A stretch of DNA of 64,000 nt from contig NZ_CP117460.1 in the NCBI RefSeq assembly GCF_030687145.1, positions 1,922,001 through 1,986,000 on the forward strand. Reading direction: 5' to 3'. A program made the translations under genes and the position numbers. Numbering within the stretch: the stretch's first letter is position 1; each line of letters begins with the position of its first letter. Positions 8,981 through 49,926 of the stretch are shown here, in pieces. Below the pieces are notes generated by a model. The model was not told the DNA's origin and did no database searches. It saw nothing but the letters and a program-made list of their open reading frames with translations. The stretch comes from Pseudomonas sp. FP1742. GTDB taxonomy: Bacteria > Pseudomonadota > Gammaproteobacteria > Pseudomonadales > Pseudomonadaceae.

Positions 8981-9109
8981 AGCGAGTACTCCTCAAGAGT
9001 TTTATTGTTATTTCCAGGGCCGGACCCATGAGGGTGGCAGCGACCCTTTGAGGTGCTTGCGAATTTGTTGACCTGATGGTCAGGAACTCGCACGAAGCGA
9101 ATTATGCTT

Positions 9110-9119
9110 TTGTATACAA
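9110..9119. promoter_or_regulatory. Candidate GntR-type operator TTGTATACAA
   Basis: A perfect palindrome, flanked as tttTTGTATACAAat, lies about 130 bp upstream of the AzgA-type permease start. It is identical to the sites at 6062 and 54426. Confidence 0.6.
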
Positions 9120-9191
9120 ATAAAGCAAATAATGTTTTTGATTTTGTAGACGAAAAGTTTGGCAATAGTGATATATCGCCTACTCTGACCC

Positions 9192-9274
9192 CTTCGCGAG
9201 CAAGCCCGCTCCCACATTCGATCGCATTCCCCTGTAAGGACTCGGTCGGATGTGGGAGCGGGCTTGCTCGCGAA
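9192..9274. repeat. Paired REP (gtgggagcgggcttgctcgc class)
   Basis: Inverted arms 'ttcgcgagcaagcccgctcc' and 'gtgggagcgggcttgctcgc' are present downstream of the MarR gene. Confidence 0.85.
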
Positions 9275-9314
9275 GGCGCTGGATCGGCTAATACAAACCC
9301 AGCAGATAAAATGC

Positions 9315-9761
9315 TTAATCAGTAGCCAACTGGCTTTTCCCCAGCGCCAGATTCACCGCCAACCACCCATTCACCGCCGTCTCCCCAGCCTCGGAAAACA
9401 CCCGCTCGAGCAATTTCACCTGCTCGCGCCGCAACGACTGCTCGAACCGCGCGCCTTCCGCGGTCAGTTCCAGCAGCCGCTTACGCTTGTCGGTCTCGGA
9501 CGCCACGCTGTTCACCAGGTGCATTTCCACCAACTGACGCAGTGGAATGTTCAACGCCTGCTTGCTCACACCGAGCAACGCCAGCAGTTCCTTGACGCTG
9601 AGGGCAGGGTAACGGGCGATGAAAAACACGATGCGTTGATGCACCCGGCTCAAGCCGCGCCGCTCGAGCATTTCATCAGCCTTGGCGGTGAAGGCCTGGT
9701 AGCCGAAGAAAAACGCTTCCATGGCCTGTTGTTGAGTGCTGGGGTTTTTAAGGTCAAGCAT
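9315..9761 (-). CDS. MarR-family transcriptional regulator
   Basis: DNA-binding regulator of 148 residues. A winged-helix core is visible around residues 45-105, with LSRVHQRIVFFIARYPALSV, the recognition-helix region LLGVSKQALNIPLRQLVE and the wing SETDKRKRLLELTAEG typical of MarR proteins. It is divergent from the aminotransferase gene that starts about 80 bp away, so it may control that gene. The ligand is unknown. Confidence 0.88.
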   Translation of the reverse strand: MLDLKNPSTQQQAMEAFFFGYQAFTAKADEMLERRGLSRVHQRIVFFIARYPALSVKELLALLGVSKQALNIPLRQLVEMHLVNSVASETDKRKRLLELTAEGARFEQSLRREQVKLLERVFSEAGETAVNGWLAVNLALGKSQLATD

Positions 9762-9843
9762 GTTGACGTATCCGCTCGGTCTGTCGTAATTTCGGTCAAC
9801 CAGTTTGACTCATTTTCCTCAGGCCTCGCTACCGGTGACCCCC

Positions 9844-11010
9844 ATGGCTTTTTCCGAACGTGTCTCGCGCCTTAAAAGTTCTTTGATCCGTGAAATCCTC
9901 GCCGCCGCCCAGCGTCCGGAAGTGATGTCGTTCGCCGGCGGGTTGCCGGCCGAAGCCATGCTGCCGAAAGTCGAGTGGGCGGACATGCCGCTGGCCATGG
10001 GGCAATACGGCATGAGCGAAGGCGAGCCGGCGCTGCGTGAGGCACTGGCGGCCGAAGCCCGCGCATTGGGTGTGCCGTGCGAGGCGAGCCAAGTGTTGGT
10101 GGTCAGCGGTTCGCAGCAAACCCTCGATCTGGCGGCCAAGCTCTATATCGACAAAGGCACCAAGATCCTGCTCGAAGCGCCGACCTACCTGGCGGCATTG
10201 CAGATATTTCAGCTGTTCGGTGCTGACTGCATCACCGTCCCACAGGAAGCCGATGGCCCGAACCTGGCACAACTGCGCAGCCGCCTGGAACAACACCGAC
10301 CTGCGTTTATCTACCTGATTCCGACGTTTCAGAACCCGTCGGCGGTGCGCTACAGCGAAGCCAAGCGCGACGCGGTGGCGGCGTTGCTCGACGAATTCGG
10401 CGTGACCCTGATCGAAGACGAACCCTATCGCGAACTGACCTTCGATGGCGGCAGTGCCACACCGATCGTCAGCCGCTTGACCAAGGCCAGTTGGATCTAC
10501 ACCGGCACCGTGTCGAAAACCCTGCTGCCAGGGCTGCGGGTTGGTTATCTGATCGCCAGCCCGGACCTGTTTCCGCATTTGCTGCGGCTCAAGCAATCGG
10601 CCGATCTGCACACCAACCGCATCGGGCAGTGGCAAGCGTTGCAATGGATCGGCACTGAAAAATACCAGCAGCACTTGGGCGAGTTGCGGGACTTCTACCG
10701 GGGGCGGCGGGATGCGTTCCAGTCGGCACTTGAAAGGCACTTTTCCGATCTGGCGGATTGGAACGTGCCGCAGGGTGGGCTGTTTTTCTGGCTGACGCTC
10801 AAGCGGCCGCTGGATACCCGCACGCTGCTCAAAGCGGCGCTGGCGGCGGATGTGGCGTTCATGCCGGGCGAACCATTTTTTCCTGAGCCGGACAACAATC
10901 ACGGTCATCTGCGGCTGAATTTCAGCCACATCGACCCGACGCGGCTGGACGAAGGGCTCAAGCGATTGGCGGCGGTGGTGCGTCAGGCACAGGCGGCAGA
11001 AGCGGCCTGA
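9844..11010 (+). CDS. PLP-dependent aminotransferase, 2-aminoadipate type
   Basis: Class I/II aminotransferase of fold type I, probably acting on 2-oxo acids. Visible motifs are MSFAGGLPAEAMLP near the N-terminus, a SNxP-like region FIYLIPTFQNPSAV, IEDEPYRELTF with the cofactor Asp, and TGTVSKTLLPGLRVGYL with the Schiff-base Lys. The ATG at 9844 gives the common N-terminus MAFSERVSRLKSSL (388 residues); a TTG at 9805 would add 13. There is no N-terminal GntR domain, unlike MocR proteins. It is divergent from the MarR gene and ends at a strong terminator. Confidence 0.85.
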   Translation: MAFSERVSRLKSSLIREILAAAQRPEVMSFAGGLPAEAMLPKVEWADMPLAMGQYGMSEGEPALREALAAEARALGVPCEASQVLVVSGSQQTLDLAAKLYIDKGTKILLEAPTYLAALQIFQLFGADCITVPQEADGPNLAQLRSRLEQHRPAFIYLIPTFQNPSAVRYSEAKRDAVAALLDEFGVTLIEDEPYRELTFDGGSATPIVSRLTKASWIYTGTVSKTLLPGLRVGYLIASPDLFPHLLRLKQSADLHTNRIGQWQALQWIGTEKYQQHLGELRDFYRGRRDAFQSALERHFSDLADWNVPQGGLFFWLTLKRPLDTRTLLKAALAADVAFMPGEPFFPEPDNNHGHLRLNFSHIDPTRLDEGLKRLAAVVRQAQAAEAA

Positions 11011-11029
11011 GAGGAGGGTATAAAACAAT

Positions 11030-11057
11030 AAACCGGCCAATTGGCCGGTTTATTTTT
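11030..11057 (+). terminator. Rho-independent terminator after the aminotransferase
   Basis: A perfect 11-bp stem AAACCGGCCAA/TTGGCCGGTTT is followed by ATTTTT. Confidence 0.85.
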
Positions 11058-11089
11058 GTCTGGGATTTGCGGTGTTTGTACCGGCCTCA

Positions 11090-11180
11090 TCGCGGGCAAG
11101 CCCGCTCCCACAGTGGACCTGTTTCAAACACAGATTCCATCTACCTTACAAATCCCTGTGGGAGCGGGCTTGCCCGCGAA
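11090..11180. repeat. Paired REP (gtgggagcgggcttgcccgc class)
   Basis: Inverted arms 'cgcgggcaagcccgctccca' and 'tgtgggagcgggcttgcccg' lie between the terminator and the convergent glutaredoxin-like gene. Confidence 0.85.
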
Positions 11181-11206
11181 GGCGTCAGTCAAAGCACCAC
11201 AAAACC

Positions 11207-11578
11207 TCAGACCGCAGCAAATCGCTTATCCAGATAATCAATGATCACCTTGGACTCATACATCCAGGTGGTCTGGCCATTCTCTTCGATGCGCAGGCAC
11301 GGCACCTTGATCTTGCCGCCTTGCTCCAGCAGGGCCTGGCGATCCTGTTCGCTGTTCTTGGCATCGCGCAAGGCCACCGGAACGTTCAGGCGACGCAGGG
11401 TGCGGCGGGTTTTCACGCAGAACGGGCAGGCATGGAACTGATACAGGGTCAGGTCCTTGGCGGCCGCTTCGACCTGAGCCTGAGCGGCGGCGGGGCGCTG
11501 CTTCTTGCCAGGACGGGTGATGAAGTCGATGAAGATGATCAGTTGGCCGAGGCCGACACGAAGCGCTTTTACGAACAC
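11207..11578 (-). CDS. Glutaredoxin-like / GST N-terminal domain protein
   Basis: Small 123-residue thioredoxin-fold protein. After about 40 residues that include a hydrophobic stretch (LGQLIIFIDFITRP), it has the redox motif CPFC in LYQFHACPFCVKTRRTL, the cis-Pro region GGKIKVPCLRIEENGQ and YESKVIIDYLDKRF, as in glutaredoxins fused to a membrane-proximal segment. The N-terminal hydrophobic part may tether it to the membrane. The start is GTG at 11578. It is likely a glutathione-dependent reductase; the partner is unknown. Confidence 0.8.
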   Translation of the reverse strand: MFVKALRVGLGQLIIFIDFITRPGKKQRPAAAQAQVEAAAKDLTLYQFHACPFCVKTRRTLRRLNVPVALRDAKNSEQDRQALLEQGGKIKVPCLRIEENGQTTWMYESKVIIDYLDKRFAAV

Positions 11579-41427: not shown

Positions 41428-41565
41428 CTGTTATAAAACCTTTTGCATAAATGCTGTCCAACCGTCGCCAATGGCGAGGTTGTTCCGGTTTTGCGTCTGG
41501 ACTTTACCTTCGCTACAGCATTCAATCTCCGGCCTTTCGGTTCCCCTTTTTTTGAGGTTCTTGTT

Positions 41566-41931
41566 ATGCGTTTGACACTGCCTGCTCTGGTTCTGGGCCT
41601 TTTGGTCGCTCAAGGTGCGATGGCTGCCGGTGATGGCACGGCCGCGCTCGGTGGTGGTCTGGGTGGCGCGTTGGGTAATGTGGTCGGCCAGAAAATGGGC
41701 GGCAGCACGGGTGCGGCGATTGGTGCTGGTGTAGCGGGTGCAGCCGGCAGCGCTGTTGCCGCACGTAAAGGCAGCCGCACCAAAGCGGCCATTGGCGGCG
41801 GTGTTGGCGCGGCGGGCGGTTCGATAATCGGTAACAGCCTGGGCGGCAAGAACGGCTCCACCATCGGCGCAGGCTTGGGCGGTGCATTGGGCGGTGGCGT
41901 GGGCAGCAACCTGTCCAAAAAGGGTCACTGA
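41566..41931 (+). CDS. Exported glycine-zipper protein (first of a tandem pair)
   Basis: A 121-residue protein with a signal peptide (MRLTLPALVLGLLVAQGAMA) and a body of alternating Gly/Ala segments such as GGGLGGALGNVVGQKMGGS and GAAGGSIIGNSLGGKNGS. Glycine-zipper motifs usually pack into membrane helices. It is clearly paralogous to the next gene. The start at 41566 is the first Met with a ribosome-site-like GAGG upstream. Function unknown; an envelope role is likely. Confidence 0.75.
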   Translation: MRLTLPALVLGLLVAQGAMAAGDGTAALGGGLGGALGNVVGQKMGGSTGAAIGAGVAGAAGSAVAARKGSRTKAAIGGGVGAAGGSIIGNSLGGKNGSTIGAGLGGALGGGVGSNLSKKGH

Positions 41932-41948
41932 TCCTTAATGATCCGCTG

Positions 41949-41984
41949 AAAAAGCCCGGCTTACCTGCCGGGCTTTTTCGTTTT
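41949..41984 (+). terminator. Terminator after the first glycine-zipper gene
   Basis: The stem AAAAAGCCCGGC/GCCGGGCTTTTT is followed by CGTTTT. Confidence 0.85.
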
Positions 41985-41985
41985 G

Positions 41986-42012
41986 GAACGTTTCTCCGGC
42001 ATATGACTCAAA
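41986..42012 (+). promoter_or_regulatory. AlgU-like promoter candidate for the second glycine-zipper gene
   Basis: GAACGT, a 16-bp spacer and TCAAA lie about 107 bp before the start. The pattern GAACGT-N16-TCRAA is repeated at 42613 and is close to the AlgU consensus GAACTT-N16/17-TCTGA. Confidence 0.35.
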
Positions 42013-42118
42013 TCTCATACAGTCGGTATTTGGTTTGCTGTACAACAGATGCAGATGCCAGGCTGAAGCCATCCGCGGCATGTTCTTTTCTCCAAGGCGG
42101 AAATTAGAGGTGCATATC

Positions 42119-42544
42119 ATGCGTTTGACATTGTCCACGGTGTTTTTAGGGCTTTTGGTCGCTCAGGGCGCAATGGCGGCCGGCAACGGCGACGCTGCAG
42201 TCGGCGGTGGTCTTGGCGGTGTATTGGGCAACGTAGTCGGCGGGCAGTTGGGCGGCAGCACCGGGGCTGCGGTGGGCGCAGGCGTCGGCGGTGCGGCAGG
42301 CAGTGCGGTCGGTGCACGCAAGGGTAGCCGCACAGAAGCGGCCGTTGGCGGTGGTCTCGGCGCGGCGGGCGGTTCGGTGATCGGCAACAGCCTGGGCGGC
42401 TCCACTGGTTCGGCCATTGGCGCAGGTGTGGGCGGCGCAGCCGGTGGCGCGGTGGGCAGCAGCATGGGTGATGACCGCGGCGGTTCGCATTCCGGTGGCG
42501 GCTATTACAAACACAAGCATAAAAATAAGTACAAGCATCGCTAA
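42119..42544 (+). CDS. Exported glycine-zipper protein (second of a tandem pair)
   Basis: A 141-residue paralogue of the previous gene. It has a nearly identical signal peptide (MRLTLSTVFLGLLVAQGAMA) and Gly/Ala repeats, such as GGVLGNVVGGQLGGSTGAAV. It adds a C-terminal tail rich in His and Lys (YYKHKHKNKYKHR) that the first copy lacks, which could bind metal or polyanions. Start at 42119 after TTAGAGG. It ends at a strong terminator. Confidence 0.75.
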   Translation: MRLTLSTVFLGLLVAQGAMAAGNGDAAVGGGLGGVLGNVVGGQLGGSTGAAVGAGVGGAAGSAVGARKGSRTEAAVGGGLGAAGGSVIGNSLGGSTGSAIGAGVGGAAGGAVGSSMGDDRGGSHSGGGYYKHKHKNKYKHR

Positions 42545-43269: not shown

Positions 43270-43620
43270 ATGATCAGGTCAAAATGGAAGGTGCTGACGA
43301 TGGTCGGCTTATTGTCGATCAGTTCAATGACGGCGCTTGCTGAATCTACCGGTCGCGATGCGCCGGTCGACAAGGGCGGGATGCCGCCTTATTCGGAAAT
43401 GAATGCGGGTACCTCGGATGGAAAGGTGCTGCCAGCGGACAGCATTGGTAGTGGAAATGGCGGTGGTGCGAAAGGGAGTAGCATCAACCCGGGGGAGGGA
43501 AGCGGGTCGGTGAGTGGGGGAGGTTCGATGGGGAGTGGTTCTGGAAATGGGTCTGGAGAATCAGGTGGTTCTGGGGGGAGTGGAGGCGGTGCAGGTAAAA
43601 CCGGTAGTTCGGGCGGCTAA
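43270..43620 (+). CDS. Exported Gly/Ser-rich protein
   Basis: A 116-residue protein with a signal peptide (MVGLLSISSMTALAEST after a basic start) and a C-terminal half that is nearly only Gly and Ser (GSGSGNGSGESGGSGGSGGG). It is likely exported and disordered. The ATG at 43270 follows AAAGGAG. The base composition is that of a low-complexity repeat tract, so its length may vary between strains. Function unknown. Confidence 0.65.
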   Translation: MIRSKWKVLTMVGLLSISSMTALAESTGRDAPVDKGGMPPYSEMNAGTSDGKVLPADSIGSGNGGGAKGSSINPGEGSGSVSGGGSMGSGSGNGSGESGGSGGSGGGAGKTGSSGG

Positions 43621-43644
43621 GTCAGACTCTTTACTGTTCAACTG

Positions 43645-43666
43645 AGCCCAGCGTCGAGCTGGGCTT
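43645..43666 (+). terminator. Stem-loop after the Gly/Ser-rich gene
   Basis: The 8-bp stem AGCCCAGC/GCTGGGCT with a five-base loop is followed by TCGGTGTTT; the T run is weak. Confidence 0.5.
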
Positions 43667-43699
43667 CGGTGTTTAGCACTGATCTCTTTTTTTGACTCG

Positions 43700-44098
43700 T
43701 TAATCCTCTTCAATCTCTGATTCAAACCAGCGCATAAAGAAGTCTCTCTGAACCTCTGGATCGTTTGTAAGATTGTTTTCTTCATAGTCAAAAATATTTA
43801 CCAGATCATTCCTTGTTGCATACTTACCTAGTGTGAGTTCATATGCTTTTACTCCGAGCGACATCTGTGAGGACATGCTGGAAGGGTGTACGTTTATTTT
43901 TGCTCCTTTGCACAGAAAAATTACACTGCAGTGCTCTTTTCTGATATTGCCAAGGCACTCGTAAAAATCTCCACCTGCATAGGTTTTGCTATATCCATCC
44001 TCCATCATGAAATTAATAGTCAGCGCTTCCGAGTCGCAGAAAAGCTTCGCGATCTGGCGCCTACCGTTTTTGATTATCACAATTTCTACGCAGTCCAC
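43700..44098 (-). CDS. Likely immunity protein to the Rhs toxin tip
   Basis: A 132-residue acidic protein of low GC content, starting with GTG at 44098, 3 bp after the Rhs stop. Its ribosome site AGGA lies inside the last codons of the Rhs gene, so the two are translationally coupled. It has no signal peptide or membrane segment, so protection would be in the cytoplasm. I do not recognise the family; the role is inferred from position, size, composition and the toxin tip next to it. Confidence 0.7.
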   Translation of the reverse strand: MDCVEIVIIKNGRRQIAKLFCDSEALTINFMMEDGYSKTYAGGDFYECLGNIRKEHCSVIFLCKGAKINVHPSSMSSQMSLGVKAYELTLGKYATRNDLVNIFDYEENNLTNDPEVQRDFFMRWFESEIEED

Positions 44099-44101
44099 TT
44101 T

Positions 44102-44599
44102 CTATTTCCTGTTCGGATTTAAGGTGGTGTAGCTAGTGGGGCGACCGTCAGCACCAATAGGCGTAACACCGAGAATATCTTCTCTTTTGATTCCACCTTG
44201 AATTGCTATCTCCCTTTCATTGCTAAATTTATATTTTTTACCCAGTTCCTTTATTAAGTCTCTACCTGGAATCATTCGCATTGTGTACAAAAAACCACTT
44301 CTCGTATTGAATTTTGTCGCGAAATCAATACCAACTTCTCTTTTTGGAGAAGTGCTAACAAAATTGCTCGGCGGATTATTGCTGTCCAGTGAGTGAAGCA
44401 GCAAATTATTGCTATCGCCCTTGGTTTTAAAGCCCTGGTAAAAGACTTCATCTGGATGGCGACTATCTCCACGATATAAATACTTTTCCTCCGTATGTGA
44501 GGGAAGTTCAGCATCTCCCTGATCAACCCCCACCTTCCCCGTCGGATCCTCATCCCCAAACGACGGCTTCTTACACCCATCCCCCCCAGGGCATTCACT
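44102..44599 (-). other. Variable toxin tip of the Rhs protein
   Basis: This segment follows the DPLGL motif and encodes the last 165 residues. Its middle and end are AT-rich compared with the GC-rich Rhs core, the usual mark of a horizontally exchanged toxin cassette. The immunity gene continues the AT-rich block. Confidence 0.75.
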
Positions 44600-47500
44600 C
44601 AACCCCAACGGATCAACCCAACCCGCCGGATTGCGCGTGTACTGATACCCGTTTAACCCGCCCGCCAACTTGCTCGGATCCGGGGTCAAATACCGCCCGA
44701 CATCCGGATTGTAGTAGCGATGCCGGTTGTAATGCAGGCCGGTTTCCGCGTCGAAATACTGCCCTTGAAATCGCAACGGCTGATCGAGCACCTGATGGGT
44801 GTCGCGGTTGAGGCGGGTGAGGCGGCCATAGGCGGTGTATCGGGCGGCCCAGATGATGTCGCCGCTGTAGTCGGTGAGTTCTTGCGGGGTGCCGAGGTGG
44901 TCGAGTTGGTAATAAAACGGGCAGGCCTTGCGCGGGCCTTTTCCGTCGAGCATGGCCAGCGGGCGGAAGCTGCCCGGCTCGTAGACGTAGCTGCGGTAAT
45001 GCTCGCGGCTGCTTTCAGCGACAAGGTTGTCGCCCTGCCAGAAAAACTCGGTGGTTTTGCCGTCGACGGTTTTGGCAATGCGACGGCCGAAAGCGTCATA
45101 GCGATAAGTTGAGCAACGACCGTCCGGGGTGGTGACACCGACCAACCGGTGCTGGCAGTCATAACGGTACTCGGTGACCAGTTTCTGCGCGGTGCCACGG
45201 CGTTCGCGGATCAGGTTGCCGAAGGCGTCGTAGTCGAAGTGGCAGTCGCCATGCATCAACAGGCGGTTGCCTTTGACGGTGGCCGGGCCCGGGCGGTCCT
45301 GCATCAGCAGGTTGCCGGCCGGGTCGTGGGCGAAGCTTTCCGGTGGCTGGTCGCGAGAGTGGCGCACGCGGATCAGCCGATTCAACGCGTCGTACTGGTA
45401 GCTACGTTGGCCATGGCGGGTGTCGGCGATGTGGTCGAGATTGCCATTGAGGCTGTAGGCATAGTCGCGGCGATACAGCGGATATTGGTGTTGGCCGACG
45501 GCGTGGGCCTTCAGGCGACCCTGTTCGTCGTAGGCATATTCACTGAGCAACAGACCCTGTTGACGCTGCTGTTCGCGGCCGAAGGCAAATTGGTGGCTGG
45601 TGAGGCGTGCGCCGTTAAGGTCAATGGCCGTCAGCGCGCCGCCCTTGGCGTGGTGATAATCGAGTTTGCTGCCGTCCGGCAGGCGTAGGCGGTTGAGCTG
45701 GCCGCAGGCGTCGTAGCCATAACGCAAGGTGCCCCAGCCCTGGTGTTCGGTGATCAGGCGGTCCTGTTGGTCGTATTCGAATTCCAGCGGATGATCGTGG
45801 CCGTCGTCGACGCTGGTCAGTCGGCCCAGCGAGTCGTAGCGGTACGCGACCTGAGTCCTGTCGGGCAGGGTCTTGACCAACAGGCGTCCGGCCGAATCCC
45901 GTTGATAGCCCGTGACCAGCTGCGAGCCGTCGTCGCCGAACTCGGTTTTCTCCAGCAGGTGGCCGTTGAGGTCGTAGGCATACGCGGTACGCCGGCCGTC
46001 GAAACCGGTTTCCTGTCGGATCAAGCCGTTGGGCGTGTAGTCCAGCCGATATTTTTCGCCGGATTCGTTCTCGATTTCCGTGAGCAGCAGCTGCGCGTTG
46101 TCGTAGCGGTACTGGAGCTGGGTGCCGTCGGGGTTGATCCGGCGGCTGACCAGGTGCAGGTCGTCGGCGTATTCGTAGCGGGTGACGCGGCCCAGTTCAT
46201 CCCGTTCAGCGGTTATCTTGCCGTAGGCGTTGTAACTGAACCCGCGGGTGGCCCCGGTAGGCAACGTCGTCTGGATCAGTCGGCCGACGGCATCCCATTG
46301 GTACTGGGTGACTGCACCGTGTTCGTCCTGACGGGTAATCTGCCGCCCCAGCGCATCGTAGGAAAAACGTCGTTGCCCGCCGTCCGGCAGTGTTTCCTCA
46401 AGCAACTGCCCCAAGGCATTCCAGACAAAGACATGCCGACTGGTGTCCGGGTAGCGGACCGACAACAGCCGGCCCTGAGGGTCGTAGTGGTAATGGGTGA
46501 CCTGACCGTTCGGATCGGTCGCCTCGGTGACGTCACCCTGAGCATTGCGCTGGTATTTCCACACCGCTTGGCCGCGATAGCGCGCATGCAGGAAACCGTG
46601 GCGATACTCGTAGGCCGTCGGCTCGTCTTCCGGTGGAATCAGCGCCACCAGCCGACCGACGTCGTCGTAGCGGTATTCGGTGACGGCTCCGAGCGGATCC
46701 TGCTCGGCCACCAACCGGCCCTGCTCGTCGTAGGCCTTGAGCTGTTCGCCGCCATCCAGCCCGACCCGGCGCACCAGTCGCGCCCGGTCGTCGTGGACGT
46801 AAACTTCTTCGCTGCCGTCGATGTTCTGGACCGTGACGCTGCCCTGGTCATCCCAGACATAGCGCGTGTCCATCTGTGAAAACGACGCCCAGTGGCGAAT
46901 ACATCTGGCCGCCTTGCCGGACCGTTGCCATTCCCAGTAGAAACTCGCGCCGCCGGCCAGTTGCCGCTGCAAAATTACGTGGTGGTCGTCGTAGTCGTAG
47001 CGCTCGCTTTCCCCGGCGGCATTGGTCGCCGCGATCAAGCGTTGGCGGGCGTCGTAGCGATAGGAAACCAGTGTCTGCTCTGTACGCCAGGCTTCACCCG
47101 GGACATCGCCGGAGTGAAACGACTGGTATTCGACGGCCACAAGGTGCCTGCGCTCGTAGCAAAACAACAATGAACGCCCGGCACCATTATCGAGGCGCTG
47201 GATGCGCTCCTGGCGGTCGCGGGTGATGCGCAGGCGGTTGTCGTAGGCATCGCTGATCGCCGTCAGACAGCCATTGTGAAAGTGGTAGAAACGCGTGTCG
47301 TCGCCAGCCTGGGCGAGGATCAGTTCTTCGGGTGCATTGCCCAGATAAATCGCCGCGCGCGAGAGGCTGTTATGGATCGCCGGGCGTTGGGCACTGGGCA
47401 GCGGGAAGGGGGTACGGCGGTTTTCGTGGTCGATCCAGATGACCTGATCACCCTCGATCTCCAGTCGATGGGCGAGCGAATGACTCCAGCCAAAACCGAG

Positions 47501-48967
47501 GCCGCAGTCGATCTCGGCGGCGCTGGTGCGATAGAGGCGGGTGAAGTCGAACGGCAGGAGGCCGTCCAGCGAGCCGTCGGTGAGGGTCAGCAGTTCTTCG
47601 CCGGTGACCATCGACACCGGGCAGCCGTTTTTGCAGGTAGACGGCACGCACGTGGCGCTGTCGCCGTTGGGGTTTTTCGCTTGATTCGGTACGTCGTCGT
47701 GAGGTTCGTGACGGCCTAGCCGGGTCATGGCTGTGGACTTGTCGCGAGCAATGGCGACCGGATTGTCCACCCGCACAACGGGTGCGTCGCCGGGACTGAT
47801 TTTTAGCGGAACCGTCGGTGCAGGTTTCAGCGGTGCATTGCGCGCGTTGACCATGAGCGGTTTGAGCGCGCCAGCGTGGGCTGTCAGGTTGGAGTTGGCT
47901 GTCAGTTCAGCCAGTCGCAAACTGGCCGCCGCCAACCACTGCCGAGCCCTTTGGGACTTGATTTTGTCCAGAACTCTGGCGCTCATGCCGAGCTTCAGCC
48001 CCGTAGGACCGGTGAGGCACATCAGCAGGAAGCTGATCAGTATTTCCGTACGAATTTGTGCCACGACTTCGGCGATGTACTGCGGCGGCAACATTCTCAG
48101 CCAACTGCTGAAGGCTGCGAGATGGATGAACATCAATGGCTCATCGCTCAACATCAGCAGCACGTTGGCGATGGTGTCAGCCGAAGCGTTCAGCAGCGTC
48201 TCAAGCTCGCCTTGGGTCAGGTACTCAAGGAGTTTTTCGCTGTTGCCTTGCAGGTCCGCCATCAGCGCGTAGACCTGTTTCACGTCATCCCATAATCCGT
48301 GCAGCGAATGTTCGAAGGCGCGCCAGTCGGCCTGCTGCAACAGGCCGTAGCGCCGGGTGAACCCTGCTTCGGAAAACTCTGCCCACAACGCCTGGAATTC
48401 GCTTTTCCATTCGTTGCGCAACCAGCCTTCCAGCTCGCCGATCACGCCTTGATAGGAGGCGTAGAGTGCTTTGACGTGTTCAGTGGAAACATCGGGGAAG
48501 AAGGTGATGCGATAGCGCTGGCCGCGCCAGCATTCGGGGATTTCGAGGATGCCGCTGGGGCCGATGGTTTTGTGGACGGGCTCGCCGAATGTGAGTTCAC
48601 CATTACGCTGCGAGATAACCGGCTCGAGCATTACAGGCGTATCGCCAATGGGCACGAAACGGGCGGCTTCAAACATATGCACCAGGGTCAACGGACCGCT
48701 GGCCGGGCACATGGCGAGTGTCGAACTGACAGGGGCGGTGGACTCTTTCGGCGCGCTGAGCCGGACTTCGTTACCGACCTTGAACACTTGCTCGACGTTC
48801 AGCGCCCCACCGGTCCAGAACTTTTCCGCCCAGGCCTCGTAGTCGTTGAGGCAGAGTCGGAAATCACCGAGCAGCGCTTCGATGTCCGGCTGTTCGGGGT
48901 TCATGGCGGCGACCACCAGCAAGCCGATGGCATTGTTCAAGGCCAGGACCTTGTCAGGTTCGAACAT
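44102..48967 (-). CDS. Rhs polymorphic toxin with C-terminal ADP-ribosyltransferase tip
   Basis: A 1621-residue Rhs protein. The first ~420 residues are helical with a hydrophobic stretch (EILISFLLMCLTGPTG); a DUF6531-like entry (CPVSMVTGEELLTLTDGS), many YD repeats and the closing RYLTPDPSKLAGG and DPLGL cleavage motif near residue 1456 follow. The 165-residue tip has low GC and the R-S-E triad of ADP-ribosyltransferases: R1499 in YLYRGDSR, STS in NFVSTSPK, and E1584/E1586 in NEREIAI. The ATG at 48967 is preferred over a GTG two codons upstream. No PAAR domain is visible. Confidence 0.9.
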   Translation of the reverse strand: MFEPDKVLALNNAIGLLVVAAMNPEQPDIEALLGDFRLCLNDYEAWAEKFWTGGALNVEQVFKVGNEVRLSAPKESTAPVSSTLAMCPASGPLTLVHMFEAARFVPIGDTPVMLEPVISQRNGELTFGEPVHKTIGPSGILEIPECWRGQRYRITFFPDVSTEHVKALYASYQGVIGELEGWLRNEWKSEFQALWAEFSEAGFTRRYGLLQQADWRAFEHSLHGLWDDVKQVYALMADLQGNSEKLLEYLTQGELETLLNASADTIANVLLMLSDEPLMFIHLAAFSSWLRMLPPQYIAEVVAQIRTEILISFLLMCLTGPTGLKLGMSARVLDKIKSQRARQWLAAASLRLAELTANSNLTAHAGALKPLMVNARNAPLKPAPTVPLKISPGDAPVVRVDNPVAIARDKSTAMTRLGRHEPHDDVPNQAKNPNGDSATCVPSTCKNGCPVSMVTGEELLTLTDGSLDGLLPFDFTRLYRTSAAEIDCGLGFGWSHSLAHRLEIEGDQVIWIDHENRRTPFPLPSAQRPAIHNSLSRAAIYLGNAPEELILAQAGDDTRFYHFHNGCLTAISDAYDNRLRITRDRQERIQRLDNGAGRSLLFCYERRHLVAVEYQSFHSGDVPGEAWRTEQTLVSYRYDARQRLIAATNAAGESERYDYDDHHVILQRQLAGGASFYWEWQRSGKAARCIRHWASFSQMDTRYVWDDQGSVTVQNIDGSEEVYVHDDRARLVRRVGLDGGEQLKAYDEQGRLVAEQDPLGAVTEYRYDDVGRLVALIPPEDEPTAYEYRHGFLHARYRGQAVWKYQRNAQGDVTEATDPNGQVTHYHYDPQGRLLSVRYPDTSRHVFVWNALGQLLEETLPDGGQRRFSYDALGRQITRQDEHGAVTQYQWDAVGRLIQTTLPTGATRGFSYNAYGKITAERDELGRVTRYEYADDLHLVSRRINPDGTQLQYRYDNAQLLLTEIENESGEKYRLDYTPNGLIRQETGFDGRRTAYAYDLNGHLLEKTEFGDDGSQLVTGYQRDSAGRLLVKTLPDRTQVAYRYDSLGRLTSVDDGHDHPLEFEYDQQDRLITEHQGWGTLRYGYDACGQLNRLRLPDGSKLDYHHAKGGALTAIDLNGARLTSHQFAFGREQQRQQGLLLSEYAYDEQGRLKAHAVGQHQYPLYRRDYAYSLNGNLDHIADTRHGQRSYQYDALNRLIRVRHSRDQPPESFAHDPAGNLLMQDRPGPATVKGNRLLMHGDCHFDYDAFGNLIRERRGTAQKLVTEYRYDCQHRLVGVTTPDGRCSTYRYDAFGRRIAKTVDGKTTEFFWQGDNLVAESSREHYRSYVYEPGSFRPLAMLDGKGPRKACPFYYQLDHLGTPQELTDYSGDIIWAARYTAYGRLTRLNRDTHQVLDQPLRFQGQYFDAETGLHYNRHRYYNPDVGRYLTPDPSKLAGGLNGYQYTRNPAGWVDPLGLSECPGGDGCKKPSFGDEDPTGKVGVDQGDAELPSHTEEKYLYRGDSRHPDEVFYQGFKTKGDSNNLLLHSLDSNNPPSNFVSTSPKREVGIDFATKFNTRSGFLYTMRMIPGRDLIKELGKKYKFSNEREIAIQGGIKREDILGVTPIGADGRPTSYTTLNPNRK

Positions 48968-49230
48968 TCGCACTCCCTCGCGCTGATCAATTTGGAGCGA
49001 GAGACTTTGCGTGGGATCTGCAAGGAAAGAAGTCGGGAAAGGAGGTGTTTGGTGTAGGGGAAATCGCTAAATCATCGCGGGCGCCTCGACACAGGTTTTT
49101 TGTATCCGCCGGGCATTGCCCGTTGCTCCCGACCGGCCGCGCTGGCTATGCTGCTGAACCCTTTAATTCATCACGGATCCGGCTGTGCCTGAGTCGCCCG
49201 GGGATGTCATGAGAAAACGGATCAGATGCG

Positions 49231-49926
49231 ATGAGTGCACCCTTGGATGAGTTCGGTCCGATCAAGGCCGTGATTTTCGATATGGACGGTTTGCTGCTGG
49301 ACACCGAGGGCATATACACCGAAGTCACGTCCATCATTGCCGAGCGTTATGGGCGCACCTTCGACTGGAGCGTCAAACAGAACATCATTGGCCGTGGCGC
49401 GGGTGATCTGGCGCGCTATGTAGTCGAGGCGCTGGACCTGCCGATCACCGCCGAAGAGTTTCTGGTGATCCGCGAGCCGCTGATGCGCGAGCGTTTTCCG
49501 ACAGCACTGGCGATGCCCGGCGCAGAGGAGCTGGTTCGGCACTTGAAAGCCAACAACATTCCTATCGCGGTGGGCACCAGTTCTTCGCGTCAGTCGTTCG
49601 GCCAGAAAACCACCTTGCACCGCGACTGGTTCGCGCTGTTCGACTTCATCGTCACGGCTGACGACCCGGAAGTGGGCGCGGCGAAACCGGCGCCGGATAT
49701 TTTCCTGACAGCGGCACGGCGCCTGGGTATCGCGCCCCGGGATTGTCTGGTGTTCGAGGATTCACCGTTCGGCGTCACTGCAGCCAAAGCGGCGGGGATG
49801 ACGGCGATTGCGGTACCGGATGCGGCGATGGCCGACGAAAAATACGCACACGCCGATGGCATTCTTCGTACGTTGAAGGCATTCAAGCCCAGCGCATGTG
49901 GCTTGCCGGCGCTTGAATGGGCCTGA
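49231..49926 (+). CDS. HAD-family phosphatase (beta-phosphoglucomutase-like)
   Basis: A 231-residue HAD-IA hydrolase. The catalytic motif is FDMDGLLLDTEG near residues 15-26, motif II is VGTSSSRQS, and motif III/IV are KPAPDIFL and VFEDSPFGVTAAKAAG. The substrate is not resolved; sugar phosphates or pseudouridine 5-phosphate are likely for this subfamily. It is convergent with the SDR gene, sharing a bidirectional terminator. Confidence 0.88.
   Translation: MSAPLDEFGPIKAVIFDMDGLLLDTEGIYTEVTSIIAERYGRTFDWSVKQNIIGRGAGDLARYVVEALDLPITAEEFLVIREPLMRERFPTALAMPGAEELVRHLKANNIPIAVGTSSSRQSFGQKTTLHRDWFALFDFIVTADDPEVGAAKPAPDIFLTAARRLGIAPRDCLVFEDSPFGVTAAKAAGMTAIAVPDAAMADEKYAHADGILRTLKAFKPSACGLPALEWA

Follow-up and report, generated by a model that had tools for sequence, protein, structure and literature searches.

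The stretch analysed here, called the window, comprises 64,000 nucleotides of Pseudomonas sp. FP1742 (contig NZ_CP117460.1, positions 1,922,001 to 1,986,000). On its minus strand lies a gene for an Rhs protein whose C-terminal tip resembles the ADP-ribosyltransferase (ART) toxin TreX, and directly downstream lies a gene whose product resembles TriX, the immunity protein of TreX. The features of the two genes, in window coordinates, are as follows.

44102 to 48973, minus strand: Rhs toxin gene, 1623 amino acids from a GTG start; Pfam RHS_repeat, DUF6531 and RHS, NCBIfam Rhs_assc_core
47654 to 48973, minus strand: N-terminal domain, approximately residues 1-440, without a Pfam family and without a PAAR match
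44600 to 44614, minus strand: DPLGL of the PxxxxDPxGL motif, residues 1454-1458
44492 to 44599, minus strand: linker, tip residues 1-36, GC-rich, occurring before other tips too
44105 to 44491, minus strand: TreX-like ADP-ribosyltransferase domain, tip residues 37-165
44471 to 44473, minus strand: codon of Arg1501, the R of R-S-E
44348 to 44356, minus strand: codons of Ser-Thr-Ser, residues 1540-1542
44210 to 44218, minus strand: codons of Glu1586-Arg-Glu1588 (ExE)
44105 to 44140, minus strand: C-terminal tail, tip residues 154-165, aligning with TreX past the end of the Scabin match
43700 to 44098, minus strand: TriX-like immunity gene, 132 amino acids, with a GTG start 3 bases past the toxin stop

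The protein is an Rhs polymorphic toxin, with an Rhs core that carries the PxxxxDPxGL motif, as this is written in an excerpt of PMC13324451, and with exchangeable tips; the sequence around the motif is NPAGWVDPLGL, and the 165 residues of the tip follow it. An earlier note on this DNA had proposed an Rhs protein with a DPLGL motif, and the open reading frame, the motif and the Rhs families of Pfam and NCBIfam all agree with that proposal, as does the position of the 165-residue tip, which occupies 44102 to 44599 with its stop codon included. The note had also called the tip AT-rich; this is true of the enzyme part (tip residues 37-165, 40.3% GC) but not of residues 1-36 (58.3%), which form the linker; the Rhs body has 61.7% GC and the next gene 41.4%. 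After DPLGL, a similar linker precedes very dissimilar tips in further genomes of this genus, and three of the eight such tips scanned could be assigned to a Pfam family at E 0.01 (ParBc_2, Tox-HNH-EHHH and Tox-ART-HYD1). Five tips behind a similar linker (L064, L065, L066, L067 and L068) have no Pfam family at that threshold; by eye, L064 resembles L067 and L066 resembles L068.

Pfam assigned the tip to the Scabin-like family (PF22596) with E=2.5e-18 and a score of 66.7 against a curated cut-off of 27. Since the score lies above the cut-off and the key residues are invariant in 19 tips, the match to ADP-ribosyltransferases is not a chance one. The nearest solved protein by PDB sequence search was the Rhs toxin TreX of Xenorhabdus bovienii (E=1.9e-31; entries 8s2m, 8s2n and 9gco), with homology spanning the whole catalytic domain of the tip, and the next solved relatives by sequence were ScARP and Scabin. 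Fold prediction with structural comparison and a profile search had both been proposed in the earlier note as checks on its suggestion of an R-S-E enzyme of the ExE form; the best PDB matches of the predicted fold were ADP-ribosyltransferases, and the profile search returned the Scabin-like family, so that Pfam, PDB sequence search and predicted fold all back the suggestion. On the predicted ART fold the Arg, Ser-Thr-Ser and Glu-x-Glu elements occur in order, and the three stretches named previously (YLYRGDSR, NFVSTSPK and NEREIAI) are all present in the order given. Two residue assignments needed correction: residue 1499, which had been taken for the Arg, is a Leu, the Arg being two positions further on at 1501; and Glu1586 does lie in ExE but is its first Glu only, the catalytic Glu being, by analogy, Glu1588. 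None of the four residues (Arg, Ser and the two Glu) varies in an alignment of 19 tips, covering 18 of the 19 fetched loci (L005, with an Rhs frame broken upstream, was omitted); in a wider set of 51 sequences, possibly with near-duplicates among them, Arg43 (tip numbering) is present in 51, Glu128 in 50 and Glu130 in 51. The idea that the tip might belong to a subfamily without a name, possibly a new one, was set aside when both TreX and TriX matched; the pair places it instead in a named subfamily, TreX-TriX, solved from Xenorhabdus bovienii. Membership in NCBIfam ADPrt_Strmyces, the sole model there to match the tip, is not claimed, its score being 56.5 against a cut-off of 250.

The adjoining gene, which the earlier note did not mention, encodes a 132-residue product whose match to TriX, the immunity partner found in the TreX PDB entries, has E=6.3e-23 (1.1e-35 with a profile). 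Neither Pfam nor NCBIfam has a family above cut-off for this product; one Pfam match, at E 0.094, fell below it. The fold prediction had a mean predicted local distance difference test score (pLDDT) of 61.0, with residues 64-93, the conserved middle, below 50, and it agreed only loosely with solved TriX (template modelling score 0.53-0.56, root-mean-square deviation 9.5-9.7); with a model of such low confidence, the TriX assignment rests on sequence. The motif FLCKG.K.NV..S.M.SQM..G..AYE is common to all 20 aligned TriX sequences, a conservation partly built in because the sequences were picked with part of the motif; L009, with a change at one motif residue, escaped this selection, and the copies of L005, L018 and L019 were omitted by choice together with an incomplete one in L014. 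We consider the product of 43700 to 44098 to be the likely antidote to the tip.

Within the genus, tip matches at E 0.001 or better were found in 45 of 149 genomes, although the match in 12 of the 45 covered no more than the linker or some short segment. The pairing count took 34 of the 58 tip match rows, including one tip with two stops (G129) and one fragment (G116); the rows left out were a cut-short tip with no TriX match in its genome (G087:C26), a divergent tip (G137:C52; 31% identical, no TriX on its contig) and 22 short rows, mostly linker, that reach about 90 residues at most. The 34 tips counted lie in 33 genomes, and a TriX match lies directly downstream of every one (34/34), whereas TriX occurs in only 3 of the 116 remaining genomes (Fisher p 5.5e-30, kinship ignored). 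The broken tips G129, G116 and G087 are what would be expected if a degenerate, inactive tip were simply hitch-hiking; for the window tip we regard this as extremely unlikely, because its reading frame is open, its catalytic residues are kept and its immunity gene is intact. The tip is single copy in its own genome (6.67 Mb), and the 19 named relatives are all Pseudomonas. TriX is rare outside the genus, being found in 3 of 274 genomes of the class, own genome included. No tip match was found in the plasmid collection at E 1e-5; the tip search left out phages, viral contigs, E. coli genomes and the PADLOC and PHROGs libraries. The presence of TreX-TriX in 33 of the 149 sampled genomes of the genus offers natural variants for a target search and a test of how general thioredoxin-dependent toxins are. 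The divergent tip of G137:C52 (L060) is ADP-ribosyltransferase-like and its carrier is, by eye, TccC-like.

Not every TriX copy stands first behind a tip: 16 of the 50 TriX matches were not first behind a counted tip, and some of these lie in rows behind one. L020 has its own tip, 52% identical to the window's, with a neighbouring TriX 48% identical to the window TriX; its extra TriX (2018 to 2419) is 77% identical to the window TriX, as if an immunity gene had outlived its toxin. Four TriX matches without a counted tip are present in G030 (C23 and C32), and extra or orphan TriX copies occur also in G036 and G097.

Most fetched relatives carry TreX-TriX at one chromosomal site. Among the 15 fetched loci in which the N-terminal domain is seen, 14 have the same HAD-hydrolase gene upstream; the downstream region recurs in 18 of the 19 fetched loci, and L006 has neither flank in common with the rest. 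Compared with the window across the 15 loci, tips are 52-62% identical in six of the seven loci whose N-terminal identity is at least 88%, whereas they are 73-81% identical in six of the seven whose N-terminal identity is at most 79%. This discordance of body and tip similarity suggests tip exchange. A TreX-like tip also occurs on a different carrier: in L059 (G112; 9080 to 11500, minus strand) it is attached to a reading frame that is at least 3474 residues long and has YD-type repeats and LysM, unlike the Rhs bodies, and a TriX match lies 152 nucleotides behind the match edge. At L070 (G116) a TreX-like fragment is accompanied by two further DPLGL tip pieces within 6 kb.

From the matches of both proteins we conclude, with a probability of roughly 88%, that the two genes encode an antibacterial Rhs effector and its immunity protein, a Pseudomonas member of the TreX-TriX family functioning as an ADP-ribosyltransferase. 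Several observations weigh against this conclusion or parts of it. The tip model is of middling confidence, with pLDDT below 50 at tip residues 60-67 and 69-81. Ser82 is kept in only 44 of the 51 sequences of the wider set, being replaced by Pro in 6 and by Gly in 1, so the family can do without the textbook Ser. The Rhs protein has no Pfam match to PAAR, and no VgrG is encoded within the window. As to tip exchange, the rank correlation between body and tip identity (-0.38, p 0.16, n 15) is not significant, and the discordant tips, of which five out of six are alike among themselves, thus do not represent independent events and possibly reflect few of them.

Because the window lacks vgrG and the protein lacks PAAR, we infer the route of delivery from the rest of the genome, which contains three TssC loci. 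A search for VgrG with PF13296 gave no match in this genome; with TIGR03361 it gave 12 rows at about 10 loci, one with an internal stop and some incomplete. Part of the N-terminal domain shows 30-32% identity to that of two further Rhs proteins encoded in this genome, and both of their genes follow a vgrG match and a DUF4123 gene; the VgrG frame of the first was confirmed by Pfam, and the second rests on the TIGR03361 match. DUF4123 proteins are adaptors that load effectors on VgrG. The occurrence of a related N-terminal domain behind vgrG and DUF4123 genes suggests type VI delivery, and we think it probable that the window Rhs protein, as an orphan type VI effector, uses machinery encoded elsewhere.

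Like TreX-TriX, the window pair combines an Rhs C-terminal ADP-ribosyltransferase with a homologous immunity protein. The match to TreX, 43-47% identical over the domain in structural alignments between a protein of Xenorhabdus bovienii and one of Pseudomonas, runs through the C-terminal tail and includes the F..ExE loop. Scabin and ScARP of Streptomyces share with the tip the Pfam family (PF22596), the R and ST(T/S) motifs and the ART fold, but they have QxE and Trp where the tip has ExE and Phe, and their match stops before the C-terminal tail; they are not known as Rhs tips. Pertussis toxin S1 and cholera toxin A1 also have the R-S-E ART fold, with only distant similarity to the tip; these toxins act on animal cells and have B subunits. 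Closer in their general arrangement are Tre23, RhsP2, TreTu and RhsF, which have Rhs carriers, ADP-ribosyltransferase tips and the same general chemistry. The reported target of Tre23 is 23S rRNA. In excerpts of the respective papers, RhsP2 modifies the 2'-OH of RNA (PMC11833690), TreTu modifies elongation factor Tu (PMC12288458) and RhsF has an R-Y-E triad (PMC13324451). None of these four was among the PDB sequence matches of the tip up to E 1, and no other sequence comparison with them was made.

TrxA is present alongside TreX in PDB entries 8s2n and 9gco, and TreX reportedly lacks Cys and attaches to TrxA through a C-terminal extension. The tip aligns with TreX to residue 164, whereas the Scabin match ends at 153; in this tail Asn161 is present in 51 and Pro162 in 49 of the 51 sequences of the wider set, and the enzyme part of the window tip contains no Cys. 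A TrxA of 109 amino acids is encoded in the same genome. Since TreX was solved with thioredoxin, a TreX-like tail is conserved and the enzyme has no Cys, thioredoxin dependence of the window tip, by analogy with TreX, is plausible.

The ExE form is arginine-directed in many toxins. The ARTT-loop position at which Scabin and ScARP have Trp is Phe125 in the window tip (Phe in 25, His in 17 and Tyr in 9 of the 51), and the position of the Gln in QxE is Glu128 (Glu in 50 of 51). According to excerpts of PMC7827354 and PMC7828395, it is this Trp and this Gln that hold guanine in Scabin and ScARP, and Asn110 and Trp128 are reported as further guanine-reading residues. Scabin Asn110 falls on Asn75 of the tip, where Asn occurs in only 14 of 51, and there is no Trp at tip positions 96 and 97, which correspond approximately to Scabin Trp128 in a part of the alignment that is gapped. 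The pair diagnostic of guanine-specific enzymes of the Scabin, ScARP and pierisin group, QxE Gln and ARTT-loop Trp, is thus absent from the tip. These replacements make it unlikely that the tip is a guanine-specific nucleic-acid ADP-ribosyltransferase acting on DNA, RNA or guanine nucleotides of the victim, even though its top Pfam family is Scabin-like and ScARP and Scabin follow TreX among its solved relatives; guanine specificity deduced from the Pfam assignment is weakened accordingly. ExE and the replaced guanine-reading residues together favour a protein acceptor, which we judge somewhat likelier than DNA.

One candidate protein is elongation factor Tu, whose modification would stop translation. 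The sole ground for naming it is that PDB 8s2n, a TreX complex, is titled TreTu and TriTu; TreTu in print is a Salmonella Rhs toxin that modifies elongation factor Tu (excerpts of PMC10469887 and PMC12288458). The toxin and immunity chains of 8s2n are, however, identical in sequence to TreX and TriX of 8s2m and 9gco, so the title is maybe a slip, and we think elongation factor Tu an improbable target. The first Glu of ExE is usually tied to transfer. Its retention in 50 of the 51 relatives makes it very doubtful that the tip chiefly destroys NAD+ as a glycohydrolase, in the manner of the ART-fold toxin Tne5, although an excerpt of PMC13285283 describes an ART-fold Rhs toxin that acts as an NAD(P) glycohydrolase.

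For the TreX-like ADP-ribosyltransferase we propose the following course of action. The Rhs body would form a cage, loaded on the type VI needle via the N-terminal domain, probably with the help of a VgrG from another locus, and the protein would, as its motif suggests, cleave itself after DPLGL. In the cytoplasm of a neighbouring cell the freed domain would probably be kept soluble, as TreX reportedly is, by thioredoxin 1 of the victim through the C-terminal tail. R, S-T-S and ExE serve NAD binding and transfer in R-S-E enzymes (excerpt of PMC7827354). In the tip, NAD+ would be bound through Arg1501 and the Ser-Thr-Ser motif, and Glu1586 and Glu1588 would transfer ADP-ribose to a macromolecular acceptor, for which a side chain of an essential protein is the likeliest candidate. 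TriX, to judge from the solved TreX-TriX complexes, would bind the tip and shield the producer and its kin. A bolder extension, which we put forward as speculative and rather unlikely, is that the Pseudomonas TreX branch has changed its acceptor, that different tips behind one body have different targets, that TriX copies of lost tips persist as a trace of earlier toxins, and that all these toxins depend on the victim's thioredoxin; it is prompted by the loop residue that contacts the substrate in relatives, which is Phe, Tyr or His depending on the member, and by the Pro that replaces the Ser in some.

An ATG two codons downstream of the GTG (48965-48967), preceded by GAGGGA, may be the real start of the Rhs gene. 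A search of 43300-49300 gave no sigma-70-like promoter, and terminator-like sites there did not exceed the level of chance. The region of the window from about 40900 on is common, wholly or partly, to 18 of the 19 relatives. Downstream of the pair, at 41443 to 42544 and 43270 to 43620 (plus strand), small glycine-rich proteins are encoded, two of which are alike.
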